Below are positions 50,765 to 57,783 of a stretch of DNA of 64,000 nt, piece after piece. Positions within the stretch are counted from its first letter, which is position 1; each line of letters starts with the position of its first letter. Position numbers and translations under genes: made by a program. Source of the stretch: Methanosaeta sp. PtaU1.Bin112 (lineage in GTDB: Archaea; Halobacteriota; Methanosarcinia; Methanotrichales; Methanotrichaceae); assembly GCA_002067705.1 (NCBI GenBank), contig MVRL01000081.1, positions 1-64,000 on the forward strand. Reading direction: 5' to 3'. The notes beneath the pieces were generated by a model, which had not been told where the DNA came from, made no database searches, and was given only the letters and a program-made list of their open reading frames with translations.

Positions 50765-50888
50765 CTTAAAGCCTCTGCAATAATGCTCAACTTAATTTCT
50801 AATATCCAGCCATAGCCAAAAAAACCTTTCGTTTCGGATAATCATGCAAAAGCTTTTTCCGCCAGCTGAATTCAAAGGAAGACTCGAC

Positions 50889-52271
50889 ATGGGCGCACTA
50901 TCATTTGAGATTATAAAGAAGGATAATCAGTCGCGTGCAAGGCTTGGGCTGATAAAGACCAAGAGGGGAGATATACAGACACCTTATCTCGTTCCGGTGG
51001 CAACATTGGGAAGCGTGAGAGCTCTGGGCGCCGATGATCTGCATAGTTTAGGCGCACAGTGCACCCTTGCTAATACCTACCATCTTCATCTGATGCCGGG
51101 TGATATGCTGATCAAGCAGATGGGTGGATTGCACCGTTTCATGGGATTTGACCGGCCTGTGTTCACTGATTCCGGCGGCTTTCAGGCATTTTCCCTGGGC
51201 TTTGCCAGAGAGCATAATATCGGCAAGATAGGCAATATCTTTCCAGATGAGCTGGCATCAAATGGCCGGTGTGCCAATGCTATGAGTTCTTCCGGCAAAG
51301 ATGATGATCCTTCTGGCATTTATCAGGATTTCCGAAAGAGGTATGATGACGATTGCGCCGGAGAAGAAGATGGCAGAAGAGGCGTCATACGGCATATTGA
51401 TAGTGATAAGGATAGTGAAAGCAGGAGAGCAAAGCCGAAGCCCGCGAAGAAAGAGAATCTGACCAGGATCACCGATGAGGGCATCTCCTTTAAGTCCCTC
51501 TCAGACGGAGCCTGGCATTTCCTGAATGCGGAAAAGTCAATGAAGATCCAGTCAAACCTGGGGTCCGATATCATCATGGCATTTGACGAGTGCACTTCTC
51601 CCCTCTCGGATTATGATTATACCAGGCGGGCAATGCAGAGAAGCCATGTCTGGGCGGAGCAGTCCATTCGCTATCATGATAGTGATCAGGCTCTCTATGG
51701 CATAATACAGGGCGGATGGTTCGAGGATTTAAGACGGGAGAGCACAGAAGCCATCTCTGCCCAGCCTTTTGACGGAATCGCCATCGGAGGCTCACTTGGA
51801 AACAGCAAGCAGGATATGCATCAGGTTCTGGATTGGACGATTCCCAGGCTGGACGACGACCGGCCGCGCCATCTTCTGGGAATAGGGGAAATCGATGACA
51901 TACTTGAGTGCGTGGCCCGGGGAATCGATACCTTTGACTGCGTCTCTCCCACCAGAATAGCCAGGAGGGGAAGCCTCTTGCTCTCGCCTCGATCGGGCGG
52001 CTTAAAAGACAATAAGTTCCACATCAATATCAAGTCGGCGAAATTCAAAGAAGATCCGTCTCCCATCGATCCCAATTGCTCCTGTTCGACCTGTCGCACC
52101 TACTCGCGGGCCTATCTCCACCATCTCTACGTATCCAGGGAGCTGTCCTATTTCCGGCTGGCTACGCTGCATAATCTGCATTTCATGTTTGCCTTCATGG
52201 AAGAGATCAGGGAAAGCATCAGGACGGACACATTCGCGGATATGAAAGAGCAATGGCTGAGAACGAGTTGA
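50889..52271 (+). CDS. tgt: Bacterial-type tRNA-guanine transglycosylase with an insertion
   Basis: 460 residues, about 85 more than bacterial Tgt. The catalytic base Asp is in FTDSGGFQAFSLG (about residue 86). The nucleophile is in DTFDCVSPTRIARRG, and the zinc site is CSCSTCRTYSRAYLHHL with a downstream His. QGGWFEDLRRES also matches. The pattern is that of queuine/preQ1 exchange at tRNA position 34 and lacks the PUA domain of archaeosine TGT. Between FSLG and the ITDEGISF segment sits a charged, low-complexity insertion of about 75 residues, likely a surface loop. GGAAG is 7 bases before ATG 50889. It is 4 bases from a YhhQ-like transporter gene. Confidence 0.88.
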   Translation: MGALSFEIIKKDNQSRARLGLIKTKRGDIQTPYLVPVATLGSVRALGADDLHSLGAQCTLANTYHLHLMPGDMLIKQMGGLHRFMGFDRPVFTDSGGFQAFSLGFAREHNIGKIGNIFPDELASNGRCANAMSSSGKDDDPSGIYQDFRKRYDDDCAGEEDGRRGVIRHIDSDKDSESRRAKPKPAKKENLTRITDEGISFKSLSDGAWHFLNAEKSMKIQSNLGSDIIMAFDECTSPLSDYDYTRRAMQRSHVWAEQSIRYHDSDQALYGIIQGGWFEDLRRESTEAISAQPFDGIAIGGSLGNSKQDMHQVLDWTIPRLDDDRPRHLLGIGEIDDILECVARGIDTFDCVSPTRIARRGSLLLSPRSGGLKDNKFHINIKSAKFKEDPSPIDPNCSCSTCRTYSRAYLHHLYVSRELSYFRLATLHNLHFMFAFMEEIRESIRTDTFADMKEQWLRTS

Positions 52272-52275
52272 ATGC

Positions 52276-52920
52276 ATGATAAAATTGAGAATTGATAAAG
52301 CTCAGGCTGCGGTAATCCTATCCGGCCTTTACCTCTTCTTCTCCCTGGCAGGAAACATAGCCGCCACCAAGGTCACCTACTTCGGCGGCCTGGTAATGGA
52401 CGCAGGCTTCATTTACTCTTTGACCTTTACCTGGCGCGATCTCATACACAAGCAGCTCGGCCAGAAGGCGGCGATAACCACCATCTGGCTCTCAGCAGCA
52501 ATCAATCTTCTCGCGGCTCTATACTTCCAGCTGGTGGTCATGATGCCGGCGCAAACTGACTGGGCTAGCGCCGGAGGCCAGGCTGCATGGGAGTTTCTCT
52601 TTTCCCTGCAGATGAGAATTGTGCTGGCGTCAATCCTCACGGCGCTGGTGGCTGAGCTGATAGATACAAAGGTATACCAGCTCTGGACGCGCGGCGGCAG
52701 AGAGAGCTGGCCGCAATGGACGCGGGTCTTTATCTCCAACTCGATATCAATTCCGGTGGACAGTCTGATGTTTCCTATCATCGCCTTTGCCGGAGTCCTG
52801 GGAATCGAGGCGCTGCATCAGATGGTCTGGACGAACATCATCGTCAAAGCGCTGGTCACCGCGCTGGTCTTCTGGACGATCTACCTGGTGCCGGAAAAAC
52901 CGATTTACGAGGAGAGATGA
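52276..52920 (+). CDS. Queuosine-precursor transporter (YhhQ/VUT family)
   Basis: 214 residues with five or six membrane helices. GNIAATKVTYFGGLVMDAG and FTWRDLIHKQLGQKAA are family motifs, as are VYQLWTR and FISNSISIPVDSLMF in the second half. The family imports queuine, preQ1 or preQ0. Placed directly after tgt, it most likely supplies the base used for tRNA modification. The two form a compact salvage operon. An alternative is import of preQ0 for archaeosine. Confidence 0.85.
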   Translation: MIKLRIDKAQAAVILSGLYLFFSLAGNIAATKVTYFGGLVMDAGFIYSLTFTWRDLIHKQLGQKAAITTIWLSAAINLLAALYFQLVVMMPAQTDWASAGGQAAWEFLFSLQMRIVLASILTALVAELIDTKVYQLWTRGGRESWPQWTRVFISNSISIPVDSLMFPIIAFAGVLGIEALHQMVWTNIIVKALVTALVFWTIYLVPEKPIYEER

Positions 52921-53288
52921 GACAAATTGCAAGCCTGCTTCAGAAAGTGAATTGCTGGGATGTGTCAACCATTTGCTGTGGGCAAATCGCGCATAATGGT
53001 GATATGGTATTTTGAAAAAATATTGTCCTGTTTCTGCATGAACACAACGGGGAAAATCGTTAATTTATAATGTTATCTGTATTATTCATAAGATATTGAA
53101 ATTGTTTTTTGAAAAGAAGTTTCCGACTAAATGTAGGTTAATTTCGACCTATAACAATAATCATATTAATATGGTATTGATCCTATCTAATAAAACCGTT
53201 AATATTTGTTTGATATTTAATAGATAAAAGATCTATATTTAAAAGAATTACAAATTTATTATAATATATTAGATATGGTAAAATCTAT

Positions 53289-53296
53289 TTATATAT
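53289..53296 (+). promoter_or_regulatory. Putative TATA box for the repeat-protein operon
   Basis: TTTATATA about 120 bases upstream of the start codon at 53410 would place transcription start near 53320, leaving a leader that includes the palindrome at 53365-53379. Confidence 0.4.
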
Positions 53297-53379: not shown

Positions 53380-53409
53380 ATTTGCGGATGATACTAAATG
53401 GTGAGGACA

Positions 53410-54105
53410 ATGTCTGTATATTTGAAAAAAATTTTTATTTGTGCCTGCATATTCGCGGTAATCTCAATTGGCATTTGCTCTGGAACTGCAAGTCTTTATG
53501 GAATGCCGCAAAAATGCATGCCTCATAAAGAAACTGCTTGCGGGAATAACCAGATAAATCAAAATCTGAATCAGAATGCATTTGGCTTGAGCGGATTTGG
53601 CGGCAGCGCTACAGGATTTAGTGGCAGTCCAGGCGGAATTGTGTGGCTTCCTCAAAATGGAATCAATATCGCCAATGCCAATGGCGGCAAAAATACCATA
53701 AATCAGAATCTGAACCAGAATGCATTCGGCCTGAGTGGATTTGGCGGCAGTGCAGGCGGAATTGTCTGGCTTCCTCAAAATGGAATCAATATCGCCAATG
53801 CTAATGGTGGCAAAAATACTATTAATCAGAATCTGAACCAGAATGCATTCGGATTGAGCGGATTTGGCGGCAGCGCAGGCGGAATTGTGGGGCTTCCTCA
53901 AAATGGAATCAATATCGCCAATGCTAATGGTGGAAAAAATACCATAAACCAGAATCTGAACCAGAATGCATTGGGCCTTTGTGGATTTGGCGGCAGCGCA
54001 GGCGGAATTATCTGGCTTCCTCAAAATGGAATCAATATCGCCAATGTCAACGGTGGAAATAACCAGATTAACCAGAATTTAAATGAAAATGCATTTGGAG
54101 GATAG
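53410..54105 (+). CDS. Exported Gln/Asn-rich tandem-repeat protein with curlin-like repeats
   Basis: 231 residues. The signal peptide (1-27) has KK then a hydrophobic core. After a short Cys-containing segment come five copies of an N/Q-rich motif (INQNLNQNAFG), alternating with LSGFGGSAGGIVWLPQNG and INIANANGG. The DNA repeat period is 123 bases (41 residues) for copies 2-5 and 144 bases between the first two. Regularly spaced Asn, Gln and Gly in strand-turn-strand units, exported and in tandem, is the design of curlin/CsgA-type amyloid subunits. Methanothrix sheaths are known to be amyloid-like, although their known protein is different. GGTGA is 5 bases before ATG 53410. The next gene begins 9 bases after its stop. 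Confidence 0.75.
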   Translation: MSVYLKKIFICACIFAVISIGICSGTASLYGMPQKCMPHKETACGNNQINQNLNQNAFGLSGFGGSATGFSGSPGGIVWLPQNGINIANANGGKNTINQNLNQNAFGLSGFGGSAGGIVWLPQNGINIANANGGKNTINQNLNQNAFGLSGFGGSAGGIVGLPQNGINIANANGGKNTINQNLNQNALGLCGFGGSAGGIIWLPQNGINIANVNGGNNQINQNLNENAFGG

Positions 54106-54114
54106 GAGTCTTCC

Positions 54115-54591
54115 ATGTTAGGGAAAGCATTCTTGTTTTTGATTCTTTTATCTTCTACAGGAGCAGGCCTGATCTATTCGGTAATTGCGCAATCAGGCTA
54201 TAACGAAGCTATCGACGAAAATAGCCAGGCAAAGGTTTTTTGCTGGCCAAATCAAAATGGCCTCAACATAGTGAATATCAATGGCAAAGCCGGCTATATA
54301 AATCAAAGCCTCAATCTAAATTATCCGGCAAATTTATATCAATCGCCTTACATGAACTTCAAGTCTGTTTCTGGAAAGAAATCAAATGAATATACAAGCT
54401 ACACAATTAATTTCTTTAATATCAACTATGGTTCGATTCAGGAAAAATCAACGGGCCATTTGAAGAAACTGCATCTTCAAAGATATCCTGCCTCCTTGAA
54501 AGAAGCTTTAAAACGGAGCGCAGAAAACGCCAGGATTCTTGAGAAAGATAGAAAAGAGAATCTAGAGCTCCTAAAGCGCATAACTTCCTGA
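54115..54591 (+). CDS. Exported protein carrying one copy of the curlin-like motif
   Basis: 158 residues. Signal peptide 1-25. Residues about 43-62 (PNQNGLNIVNINGKAGYINQ, then SLNLN) match the repeat unit of the preceding gene (PQNGINIANANGGKNTINQN, then LNQN) in one diverged copy. The C-terminal 70 residues are unrelated, basic and helical (KKLHLQRYPASLKEALKR). AGGAG is 6 bases before the ATG and overlaps the preceding stop region, so the genes are co-transcribed. A protein with one matching unit beside a many-unit protein recalls the CsgB nucleator beside CsgA. That role is inferred. Confidence 0.65.
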   Translation: MLGKAFLFLILLSSTGAGLIYSVIAQSGYNEAIDENSQAKVFCWPNQNGLNIVNINGKAGYINQSLNLNYPANLYQSPYMNFKSVSGKKSNEYTSYTINFFNINYGSIQEKSTGHLKKLHLQRYPASLKEALKRSAENARILEKDRKENLELLKRITS

Positions 54592-54910
54592 TGATGTTTT
54601 GGATTTGGGTGACATCCTGCATTGGCATCAAATGAAACGTGACAGGTTCCACAATTTATTTCTGCATATTTCATTTCTCTCCGTTTAATTTCTTTCAGTT
54701 TCATTTATCCGGCATTATGAATGATTGTCGCTCCATTCATACGGTTTTGATTCGCCTAGGATTAATAAAAATTAAATGCATATGCAACTTGATTTTCCAC
54801 GGGCCGATTATTGCTCAAAGAATATTATAACATTTATAATAAAAAAGTATTTATACTATTAGCACCTAAATTTTACCAATCCCCATATTCAACCGAGAGT
54901 GAGTGCGAGC
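54592..54910. other. Intergenic region with a small CxxCH-containing frame
   Basis: About 320 bases. On the minus strand, a frame from about 54674 reads MKYAEINCGTCHVSFDANAG then CHPNPKHH before running antisense through the neighbouring gene. It may be the remnant of a haem or metal-binding protein. On the plus strand, GTATTTATAC at 54848-54857 is a good TATA-like box for the gene at 54911, which also has GTGAG about 7 bases before its ATG. Confidence 0.4.
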
Positions 54911-56098
54911 ATGATGAAAATTCCAAATAGGTCCATAGCCGTGGTATTCAGCCTTATTTTACTTTTTTATCAGACTGAAGCGTCGGATTACCCTTTCGGC
55001 TCTAAAGTTATGTCCAATGATTCTGATTTAGGCAGACTTCTTAAAAATATGCCTGACAGTACGATAATAAGTATATGGGATATTGGGACTGATATCGGAT
55101 CTTATGACGTCGGCGATGTTGTATATCTCGACACGCCGCCGATTGGAACTGCAAACGCCAATGATGTAAGGTTGACCTCATTTAATCGCTACCAAGCCGG
55201 AACCAAGGTCAAACCTTATCATGGTGATATCAATGCACCACTAAATCAACTTCTTGCTGAAATACGCTTTTTAAACCTGAATGGCAGCCAGTCCTATGAT
55301 ATCCATGATCCAGTATATATCGTTCAAGCCACCATGCTTTATCAGAATGAAACCATCCCATCGGATAAAGCGCAAAAGGATGAAACAAGCAATCCAGGTC
55401 CCGCAGGAAGCAGCATAGCTCAGGCATCCAATGTAGCGGAAATAAATTCTACAAATCCTGAAGATGTGGAGACTCCGGTTGGCTCTTCATGCGATAAAGG
55501 GAAACCTTGTCCCACGCAAAATGATTTCTATGAGCACCTTTCATATACAGGCAGTTGCGAGGGCCTTCCACAGACAAGTGTATGCCTAATATATTCGGAT
55601 AATTATGTATGGCCTGTATCAGATAGGCTCCTCAGCAATTCACCATCTTTGGTGGGATTCGACAATAATGGATTTCCCATTGAAGTTATTAGCTGCTACA
55701 ATGCCGAATACTATCATATACTTGGCACTTTGCTCGTAAAAAATGAGAAGAAAAAGAAGACATTATTTATCCAATCCGCACCAGATATGGGTGCTTCAAT
55801 TATAGGCAGCAGCTTGATTCGCACTAATGATATCAGATTGACTCCTGTGAACGAAATGCAACCAGGGTCAAAGGTATTGAACTTTGAACCTGACCTCAAT
55901 AAATTAATTGCCCTCCCGGTTTTGGTCAGCTTCCCCAAGCGCACGGGCGATTATGCCTGTCTCAGAGTCTTTGATGCCAATGGCAATGGATTATACGACG
56001 ATGAAGACAGCGTGTATATTGATATATCATTGCCTTTTGAATCTAGCTTTGGGACTGTAACTATAAACGACATTCGACTGACAGGCTCCTCAAGCTAG
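54911..56098 (+). CDS. Exported protein with acidic calcium-loop-like repeats
   Basis: 395 residues. Signal peptide 1-24. Three related segments follow: YPFGSKV...WDIGT then YDVGDVVYLD; a second with FLNLNGSQSYDIHDPVYI; and a C-terminal one with DANGNGLYDDEDSVYID. Each segment pairs a beta stretch with an acidic D-x-N-G-x-G-x-Y-D-x-x-D loop and ends near ANDVRLT or TNDIRLT. Such loops resemble dockerin or EF-hand calcium sites. The central region is unlike anything I know. It is closely paralogous to the convergent gene at 56392. Probably a surface or sheath component. Confidence 0.65.
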   Translation: MMKIPNRSIAVVFSLILLFYQTEASDYPFGSKVMSNDSDLGRLLKNMPDSTIISIWDIGTDIGSYDVGDVVYLDTPPIGTANANDVRLTSFNRYQAGTKVKPYHGDINAPLNQLLAEIRFLNLNGSQSYDIHDPVYIVQATMLYQNETIPSDKAQKDETSNPGPAGSSIAQASNVAEINSTNPEDVETPVGSSCDKGKPCPTQNDFYEHLSYTGSCEGLPQTSVCLIYSDNYVWPVSDRLLSNSPSLVGFDNNGFPIEVISCYNAEYYHILGTLLVKNEKKKKTLFIQSAPDMGASIIGSSLIRTNDIRLTPVNEMQPGSKVLNFEPDLNKLIALPVLVSFPKRTGDYACLRVFDANGNGLYDDEDSVYIDISLPFESSFGTVTINDIRLTGSSS

Positions 56099-56391: not shown

Positions 56392-57783
56392 TCAGACTGA
56401 ATCGGATAGCCGCACATTATTTACGGCCACAATGTCATTTGACCTGCAGTCTGCTGGCACATTCAGGTACAAGTCGTCTTTGTAGTCGTAGATTCCATTG
56501 CCGTTTTCATCGAAGAATCCAATCCTAGCACCATTATTGCACCCAAGGAAGCTATCCAATGGCGGTAAAGCTATCATGCCCCTATCCATGCCATTAGAGA
56601 TTTTTGTCCCATTCTGCAAATCCGCCCTCATCGAACTCAAAATTATATCATTTGTTTGGATAAATTCGTCCCTGAGAGATACGTCTTTGCCGCAAGACTT
56701 TTGGCCATCACATCCATCATGGTTATCGTTCTGGTATCTGTTGTTGCATTGGCTATCATATTGCTTTCCGCACTTGTCGTCACACCTGTCATTGCACGTT
56801 CCATCGCACCGCTCATCGCACTTATCGTCACACCTATCATTGCACTTTCCACCGCACCGCTCATCGCACTTATCGTCATACCTGTCGTCGCACTTTCCAT
56901 CGCATCGCTCACCGCACTTATAGTCATACCTGTCGTCGCACTTTCCATCAGACCGATCATCGCATTTATCATCAAAACTGTCTTGGCATTTGCTTTCCTT
57001 TGAAGGGCCTTCATCCACTCTATCATAGGCTTTGATCTTAACTAGCCAGGTTCCGAGAACATGATAGTAGTCGGCCTTCAATCCTTTAATCCTCTCAATG
57101 GTAAGGCCATGGATGTCTCCAACCCTTTTTGGCCTGCTTTCAATTAATACGTCCGAGATGAATAATTTATAACCATCTGTAAATGTAGCATAGCTAAATG
57201 CACGCGAAATTATCTCCTCTCCCTGGTAAGGAAGGCGCTCGAAAAACCCTGTAGCTAAATCCTTTGAATTTTCGGAATCATAGCAAGATGAACTCTCCGA
57301 ATCGTCCTTTGTATCGGAGTTGCAGGCACGATGACAACAGCAGCAATGATTACATTCGGCCATCAGATGCAGATAAACGGGATCGTTAAGGTCGTAGGCC
57401 TGGCTTCCATTCTCATTCAGGAAGCAGATTATTGAAGCGAGTCTCGTTAGCGGTCTATTCATATCAGAATCATCAGAAACTATTTTAGAGCCGGGAGATG
57501 CATTGCCAAAAAAAGATAGTCTCACATCATTGGCACTTGTTGTGCAGCTCTTTAAATAGTTCATATGCAGATATACAGGATCATCTAAATCGTAGCCAGG
57601 GGTTCCAATATCCCAAAAACCAATGAACATATCGGATGGAAGTCGATGAAGCGGCAAGCCAATGTCCGATTGGTTCAGCTGGACTTTGCTGCCAAACGGA
57701 TAGGTAGAACTGCTTGCTGGATCTGCCATCAAGATAATGCTCGCCAATAAGAGCACAATTGAGAACCACTTCATACCTGGCAT
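56392..57783 (-). CDS. Exported paralogue with a long Cys/Asp-rich repeat
   Basis: 463 residues. Signal peptide about 1-25. N-terminal segments YPFGSKV, FWDIGTPGYDLDDPVYL and AYDLNDPVYLHL repeat the pattern of the gene at 54911, and the C-terminal DENGNGIYDYKDDLYL matches its last calcium-like loop. Between them, about 259-330, is a repetitive stretch of units such as CDDRC, CDERC and CDGKC with Cys every four residues, absent from the paralogue and encoded by short DNA repeats. An HCCCCH cluster lies near residue 145. Such density of Cys and Asp could bind metals or be cross-linked by disulfides. The start at 57783 or 57774 is uncertain. Confidence 0.65.
   Translation of the reverse strand: MPGMKWFSIVLLLASIILMADPASSSTYPFGSKVQLNQSDIGLPLHRLPSDMFIGFWDIGTPGYDLDDPVYLHMNYLKSCTTSANDVRLSFFGNASPGSKIVSDDSDMNRPLTRLASIICFLNENGSQAYDLNDPVYLHLMAECNHCCCCHRACNSDTKDDSESSSCYDSENSKDLATGFFERLPYQGEEIISRAFSYATFTDGYKLFISDVLIESRPKRVGDIHGLTIERIKGLKADYYHVLGTWLVKIKAYDRVDEGPSKESKCQDSFDDKCDDRSDGKCDDRYDYKCGERCDGKCDDRYDDKCDERCGGKCNDRCDDKCDERCDGTCNDRCDDKCGKQYDSQCNNRYQNDNHDGCDGQKSCGKDVSLRDEFIQTNDIILSSMRADLQNGTKISNGMDRGMIALPPLDSFLGCNNGARIGFFDENGNGIYDYKDDLYLNVPADCRSNDIVAVNNVRLSDSV

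Follow-up and report, generated by a model that had tools for sequence, protein, structure and literature searches.

The window analysed, a stretch of 64,000 nucleotides, belongs to a Methanothrix-type genome (G000; 3.44 Mb, 99% complete). This agrees with the first-pass annotation, which had assumed the Methanothrix lineage; the genome is that of Methanothrix or of a near relative, and amyloid-like sheaths occur in this group (PMC11576556). Two genes separated by 9 bases are located on its forward strand, each with its own ribosome-binding site (Table 1). The first gene had been described as coding for an exported protein of 41-residue units rich in Asn, Gln and Gly, and this was confirmed, with about 4.5 near-identical units being present. 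The signal peptide is followed by a short stretch with two invariant cysteines (C40 and C48), a half-unit and four units. Export signals were judged here and below by eye from a hydrophobic N-terminal segment. The start codon at 53410, chosen in the first pass, is favoured over that at 53398 because of the sequence GGTGAGG at 53400-53406.

Table 1. Features of the two-gene unit and its surroundings (positions in the window) and related genes at other loci (locus named before the position)
Feature	Position	Strand	Basis or remark
Transglycosylase gene and adjoining transporter gene	50844-52920		TIGR00430, TIGR00697
TATA-like box, putative promoter for both genes	53286-53296	+	TATTTATATAT; putative
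Ribosome-binding site GGTGAGG	53400-53406	+	Sequence; identical in L021
Many-unit exported repeat protein (ORF1), 231 aa	53410-54105 (alternative start 53398)	+	ORF, repeats, homologues
N-terminal half-unit, second strand only	53542-53586	+	A6 profile match, positions 12-26
15-residue Gly-rich/hydrophobic inserts	53731-53775, 53854-53898, 53977-54021; longer one 53587-53652	+	None in 30-residue relatives; short strand predicted
Unit 1, 26-residue core	53653-53730	+	A6 profile, E 2.2e-11
Unit 2, 26-residue core	53776-53853	+	A6 profile, E 2.2e-11
Unit 3, 26-residue core	53899-53976	+	A6 profile, E 1.3e-10
Unit 4, 26-residue core	54022-54099	+	A6 profile, E 1.1e-9; stop codon directly after
Ribosome-binding site AGGAG of partner	54104-54108	+	Sequence; overlaps ORF1 stop
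Partner protein, 158 aa, exported	54115-54591	+	ORF, own signal peptide, own AGGAG
Single diverged unit core of partner	54253-54330	+	A6 and A8 profile matches; homologous to ORF1 units
Second half-unit of partner, YTINFFNINYG	54400-54438	+	Conserved in L021 and L022
C-terminal helix of partner	54487-54585	+	Invariant positions; predicted helix 125-157, pLDDT about 78-90
Exported YPFGSKV-family neighbour of the pair	54899-56098	+	Adjoins pair in all three genomes
Second YPFGSKV paralogue, exported	56392-57783	-	
Cys/Asp-rich tandem repeat	56769-56982		Within second paralogue; 48-nt period, DDKCDERCDGKC type
Exported protein of G025, 449 aa	L025 5734-7083	-	About twelve 30-residue units
Exported 30-residue-unit proteins	L109 4265-4993, L110 3738-4451, L111 3501-4241, L114 3510-4298, L116 3464-4240, L117 3410-4153	-	
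Exported 30-residue-unit protein	L118 3975-4703	+	
DUF11-like neighbours	L109 5228-6694, L110 6393-7886, L117 4534-6030, L118 2278-3741		

The units of ORF1 are spaced by 123 nt and share 88 to 92% DNA identity. Each consists of a 26-residue core (QNGINIANANGGKNTINQNLNQNAFG) and a 15-residue insert, and the first of these spacers exceeds the others by 7 residues. Unit 4 reaches nearly to the stop codon, and a C-terminal cap is absent. A comparison of units 1 and 2 showed 9 synonymous changes and 1 non-synonymous change, which indicates that selection maintains the protein sequence of the repeat and that recent duplication alone does not explain it. The content of Asn plus Gln is 25.5%, compared with at most 11% in the 44 other ORFs of the window, and is also higher than in CsgA and CsgB. 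On the scale used, the prion-like score of ORF1 was the highest in the window and exceeded those of CsgA and CsgB; the score was unstable across orthologues, that of L021 being negative.

The second gene had been thought to encode an exported protein with one diverged copy of the unit and an unrelated basic tail. The diverged unit, the export signal and the distance of 9 bases were borne out. When the unit was aligned with the profile of the ORF1 units, hhalign gave a score of 38.0, while the maximum obtained with shuffled columns was 18.5 (0 of 100 shuffles reached the observed score). The partner does not have a single motif, since a second half-unit is present, which reads AINIVNINYG in a second genus (G003), and the tail is better described as a conserved predicted helix of 33 residues. 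In the AlphaFold model of the partner (mean pLDDT 45) everything apart from the helices was disordered, and the C-terminal helix alone was predicted with confidence.

The pair and its downstream neighbour were found in three genomes of two genera: the genome of the window, Methanothrix sp. STF2_18 of the same genus (G036; loci L021 and L023), and Methanotrichaceae archaeon Ch14 of another genus (G003; loci L022 and L024). ORF1 is 84% identical in G036 and, over the aligned part only, 73% identical in G003. The TATA-like box is almost unchanged in the upstream alignment with L021. Values of dN/dS against L021 were 0.23 for ORF1, 0.43 for the partner and 0.07 for the upstream transporter gene, so that both members of the pair are constrained by purifying selection, yet fast-evolving, like surface proteins. 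The distribution of the pair is patchy (3 of 50 Methanotrichaceae genomes). Searches of 50 family, 238 class and 394 phylum genomes gave no further strong matches to the unit of the window, except for one protein of G025.

The exported neighbour is 50% identical to its counterpart in G003 and 37% identical to its own paralogue in the window. Its family, with D-x-N-G-N-G-x-Y-D motifs, occurs in 42 of the 50 genomes, often in several copies, and as it is widespread without the pair it was regarded as associated only and not as a component of the system. The Cys/Asp-rich repeat of the DDKCDERCDGKC type in the second paralogue is perhaps metal-binding. On the other side of the pair lies a gene for a bacterial-type tRNA guanosine(34) transglycosylase (TIGR00430, well over the cut-off) with an acidic low-complexity insert. 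It adjoins a gene for a queuosine precursor transporter (TIGR00697), and by these assignments the two represent a queuine-salvage pair in an archaeon.

The repeat family was defined by its 26-residue core, which has the signature Q-x3-N-x5-G-x2-N-x3-Q-x3-Q-x-A-x-G. With two positions relaxed (Q-x3-N-x5-G-x2-N-x3-Q-x3-[QE]-x-[AG]-x-G) ORF1 contains 4 matches, and any match at all was found in 2 of 20000 shuffled ORF1 sequences. The unit of the G025 protein is homologous to this core; its units are nearly identical and have no insert, those at the C terminus are diverged, and the last contains a curlin-like G-x-x-N-x-A-x-I-x-Q stretch. No partner gene adjoins it. Low E-values of this protein against hnRNP_Q_AcD and prismane_assoc came without a passing stretch and were dismissed as chance matches added up by the repeats. 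A profile of the window and G025 kinds of unit (A6) gave weak single matches (E 0.01-0.04) in further genomes, and the proteins concerned were exported and had tandem 30-residue units of the same plan. In comparisons of independent profiles, these units aligned without gaps over 26 to 29 columns with both the window core and the G025 unit, and 0 of 100 column shuffles reached the scores.

A profile of all three kinds of unit (A8) detected the unit in 7 of the 11 genera of the Methanotrichaceae (17 of 50 genomes), and the 188 other genomes of the class gave no match. The matches are partly by construction, the ones outside the model being those of the g9 genomes, of G006 and of the second loci of G003 and G004. 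The matches outside the model have a period of exactly 90 nt. The unit is present in each of the six g9 genomes, among them G046 (L109), which we take to be the genome of M. thermoacetophila PT, a cultivable organism; its repeat protein has 242 residues. The common form of the family is a tandem 30-residue unit in one exported protein, encoded by a single gene without a unit-bearing partner and mostly carrying a C-terminal extension. The form in the window, with the extra 15-residue insert and the dedicated partner, was seen in the three genomes; G003 has both forms, while in G000 only the pair was found. An exported protein of 487 to 498 residues with a sub-threshold DUF11 match is encoded near the 30-residue gene in four genomes, usually divergently; it showed no sign of the unit and was rejected as a partner. 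No Pfam or NCBIfam entry was found for the 30-residue relatives, and a literature search gave no account of the family. Judged from these comparisons, the pair is a real, conserved two-gene unit of an undescribed repeat family specific to the Methanotrichaceae.

Thirteen columns were conserved in 32 distinct 30-residue units, namely Q1, A3, N5, A7, V9 and G11, and N14, h16, Q18, h20, Q22, A24 and G26. Entropy was lower in each of them than in any of the intervening columns (U = 0, p = 7e-6; the groups were named after the consensus had been seen, and the units are related). A strand-turn-strand (beta-arch) rung with conserved inward side chains requires just such an alternation, which is strict here and shifts phase only once, at G-x-x-N. 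Strand 2 of the window unit follows the same plan, with N, I, Q, L, Q and A facing inward and T, N, N, N and N outward. AlphaFold assigned to every ORF1 unit a 15-residue strand on strand 2 and short strands on INI of strand 1 and on the insert, at a mean pLDDT of 65.6 that only one of five models reached. Foldseek gave no significant match; the top-ranked solved structure was FapC (E 0.05, TM 0.09), a result without evidential weight, and the weak matches included adhesins and ice-binding proteins. Sequence searches of the PDB yielded nothing credible, and no relatives were found among viral structures, viral contigs, phages and plasmids.

The repeat had also been called curlin-like, and the profile search against curlin (PF07012) proposed with that claim gave no match to the window proteins up to an E-value of 10. 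PF07012 gave nothing over the cut-off in the window, its genome or 238 genomes of the class, and the 30-residue relatives gave no match up to E 10. The sole match in the genome of the window lay at a tryptophan-synthase-like gene and was attributed to chance. ORF1 contains 0 QX10Q motifs and 0 curlin units (N-x-h-x-h-x-Q strands), compared with 7 and 5 in CsgA and 10 and 5 in CsgB. When the window unit was compared with the units of K-12 CsgA and CsgB, single or doubled, the profile score stayed at shuffle level, with 82 of 100 column shuffles reaching the observed value. The 30-residue relatives were slightly closer to curlin (5 to 29 of 100), which is insufficient. The suggested CsgA/CsgB layout does not hold either, as K-12 CsgB has five curlin repeats and precedes csgA, while the partner here has one unit and a half. 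Kinship to FapC, considered because of the top Foldseek rank and a GhNhA motif, was rejected in the same way: 83 of 200 shuffles reached the score of the FapC repeat profile, which comprised three repeats, against the unit core. The NCBIfam models of FapC and FapB (NF058558, NF058557) did not match the window proteins up to E 10, and no Fap relatives that could deepen the profile were found on plasmids. Of the first-pass reading as a whole, we retain an exported protein of repeats, now read as strand-turn-strand, and the small matching protein beside it; curlin membership and the CsgA/CsgB layout were given up.

In our judgement there is close to an even chance that the two proteins make up a beta-arch system that assembles by self-stacking outside the cell. 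One 41-residue unit would form one rung, consisting of strand 1 (QNGINIANAN), the G-x-x-N turn, strand 2 (TINQNLNQNA) and the Gly-rich insert, which connects to the following rung. Every second side chain (Q, A/G, N, V, I/L, Q, A) would face inward, and N/Q ladders would result. Both proteins would leave the cell by their signal peptides and the general pathway, an outer-membrane exporter being unneeded in a single-membrane cell. CsgG is an outer-membrane channel, and the lack of its gene, recorded in the first pass, is uninformative because such a channel is not expected in a single-membrane archaeon. Because the many-unit protein ends in a unit without a cap, end-to-end stacking, giving extracellular fibres or an extracellular layer, would be its simplest use, and a missing cap is a named condition for polymerising solenoids (PMC10192328). 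The conserved cysteines would be available for cross-links, as in sheaths, and the partner, which combines a helix with one and a half matching rungs, may seed, cap or anchor the stack.

We infer fibres, an amyloid state and this role of the partner from selection on the units, recurrence in three genomes, the alternation of columns, the AlphaFold strands, the Asn and Gln content, the prion-like score, the match in design with curli and FapC, the homology of the partner unit and the conserved helix. The low pLDDT, the lack of a significant Foldseek match, the unstable prion-like score, the single-unit partner unlike CsgB and FapB, and the patchy occurrence of the pair weaken this reading, as does the fact that beta-solenoids often do not polymerise (PMC10192328). 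Its architecture makes it plausible that the pair is a functional amyloid of archaea with an origin separate from those of curli and Fap. More tentatively, Methanothrix and its relatives could possess a functional-amyloid family of their own, based on a beta-arch unit that arose independently of curli and Fap. A subunit of many rungs would then assemble with a nucleator or anchor of one and a half rungs, beside the separate amyloid-like sheath.

That non-polymerising solenoids are common (PMC10192328) also favours a monomeric beta-solenoid surface protein, an adhesin or ligand-binding scaffold, whose long flat face, outward T-N-N-N-N on strand 2, would bind a partner cell, a polysaccharide or a mineral, with the second protein as an accessory. 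The regular outward face and the weak matches to adhesins and ice-binding proteins agree with this, but the many-unit protein has no C-terminal cap, anchor or binding domain and its partner bears a matching rung, and we regard a monomer as somewhat unlikely. A minor sheath or spacer-plug component, co-assembling with the sheath hoops without a separate fibre, would suit the conserved cysteines, which fit disulfide-linked sheaths, and SH proteins are present in all Methanotrichales while the plug proteins are unknown (PMC11576556). However, sheaths are reported order-wide and the pair occurs in only 3 of 50 genomes of the family, and the SH core, described as two antiparallel sheets of six strands each (PMC11576556), seems unlike these repeats, for which the low-confidence ORF1 model shows three strands per 41-residue unit; we regard such a component as unlikely.

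A disordered matrix protein rich in Asn, Gln and Gly, forming a gel or separating as a phase without ordered rungs, would account for the low-complexity composition and the poor structure prediction. The strict alternation around one turn and the few replacement changes between units argue for ordered packing, and make disorder quite improbable. Least probable of all is a true archaeal curli system homologous to CsgA/CsgB. The shared strand, G-x-x-N turn, strand plan and the weak profile signals of the 30-residue relatives speak for it, as does a 2012 curli survey in which a single archaeal protein, left unnamed, is noted to have curli-like repeats at regular spacing (PMC3521004). With PF07012, QX10Q and the curlin unit all absent and the window unit at shuffle level, this explanation is mostly refuted already.

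Methanothrix is a major methane producer, and its filaments build the granules of anaerobic digesters. To our knowledge, nearly all known functional amyloids of archaea are sheath proteins. Lineage-specific curli-like rungs without kinship would test the repeated evolution of N/Q-laddered beta-arch fibres, and the pair supplies specific Methanothrix genes as candidates for the group's matrix or plug proteins.

Among known systems, the sheath proteins (SH/MspA of Methanospirillum and MspA of Methanothrix, Mthe_1069) come from the same or related organisms and are likewise exported, beta-rich, amyloid-like surface proteins with disulfides; that of M. thermoacetophila has 60.9 kDa (PMC6242892). 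By the published description of SH they appear to differ in fold, and no tandem N/Q unit is known in them. The Fap system has repeats of about 38 residues with an N/Q/G framework, and the published design of the FapC layers matches that of the window units (PMC12392863). A G-h-N-h-A...G-x-G-N stretch, noticed after the fact, resembles GINIAN..GGKN of the window unit. In contrast to the pair, Fap has long linkers and a fapA-F operon, and FapB also has three repeats, so that the single-unit partner is unlike both CsgB and FapB. The curli unit is shorter (22-23 residues) and contains N-x-h-x-h-x-Q twice, with five repeats in both CsgA and CsgB. Curli rungs consist of a strand, an X-G-X-X turn and a strand, with N, two hydrophobic residues and Q facing inward (PMC10192328), and the window unit likewise has two strands around a turn, here G-x-x-N (X-G-X-X/N in curli), with inward N, Q and hydrophobic residues. 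In both systems two related exported proteins are encoded by tandem genes. On the sequence comparisons made, the pair is not curli and has no detectable kinship to curli or Fap, but it resembles curli in design, and the archaeal protein of the 2012 survey could be a member of the family described here.
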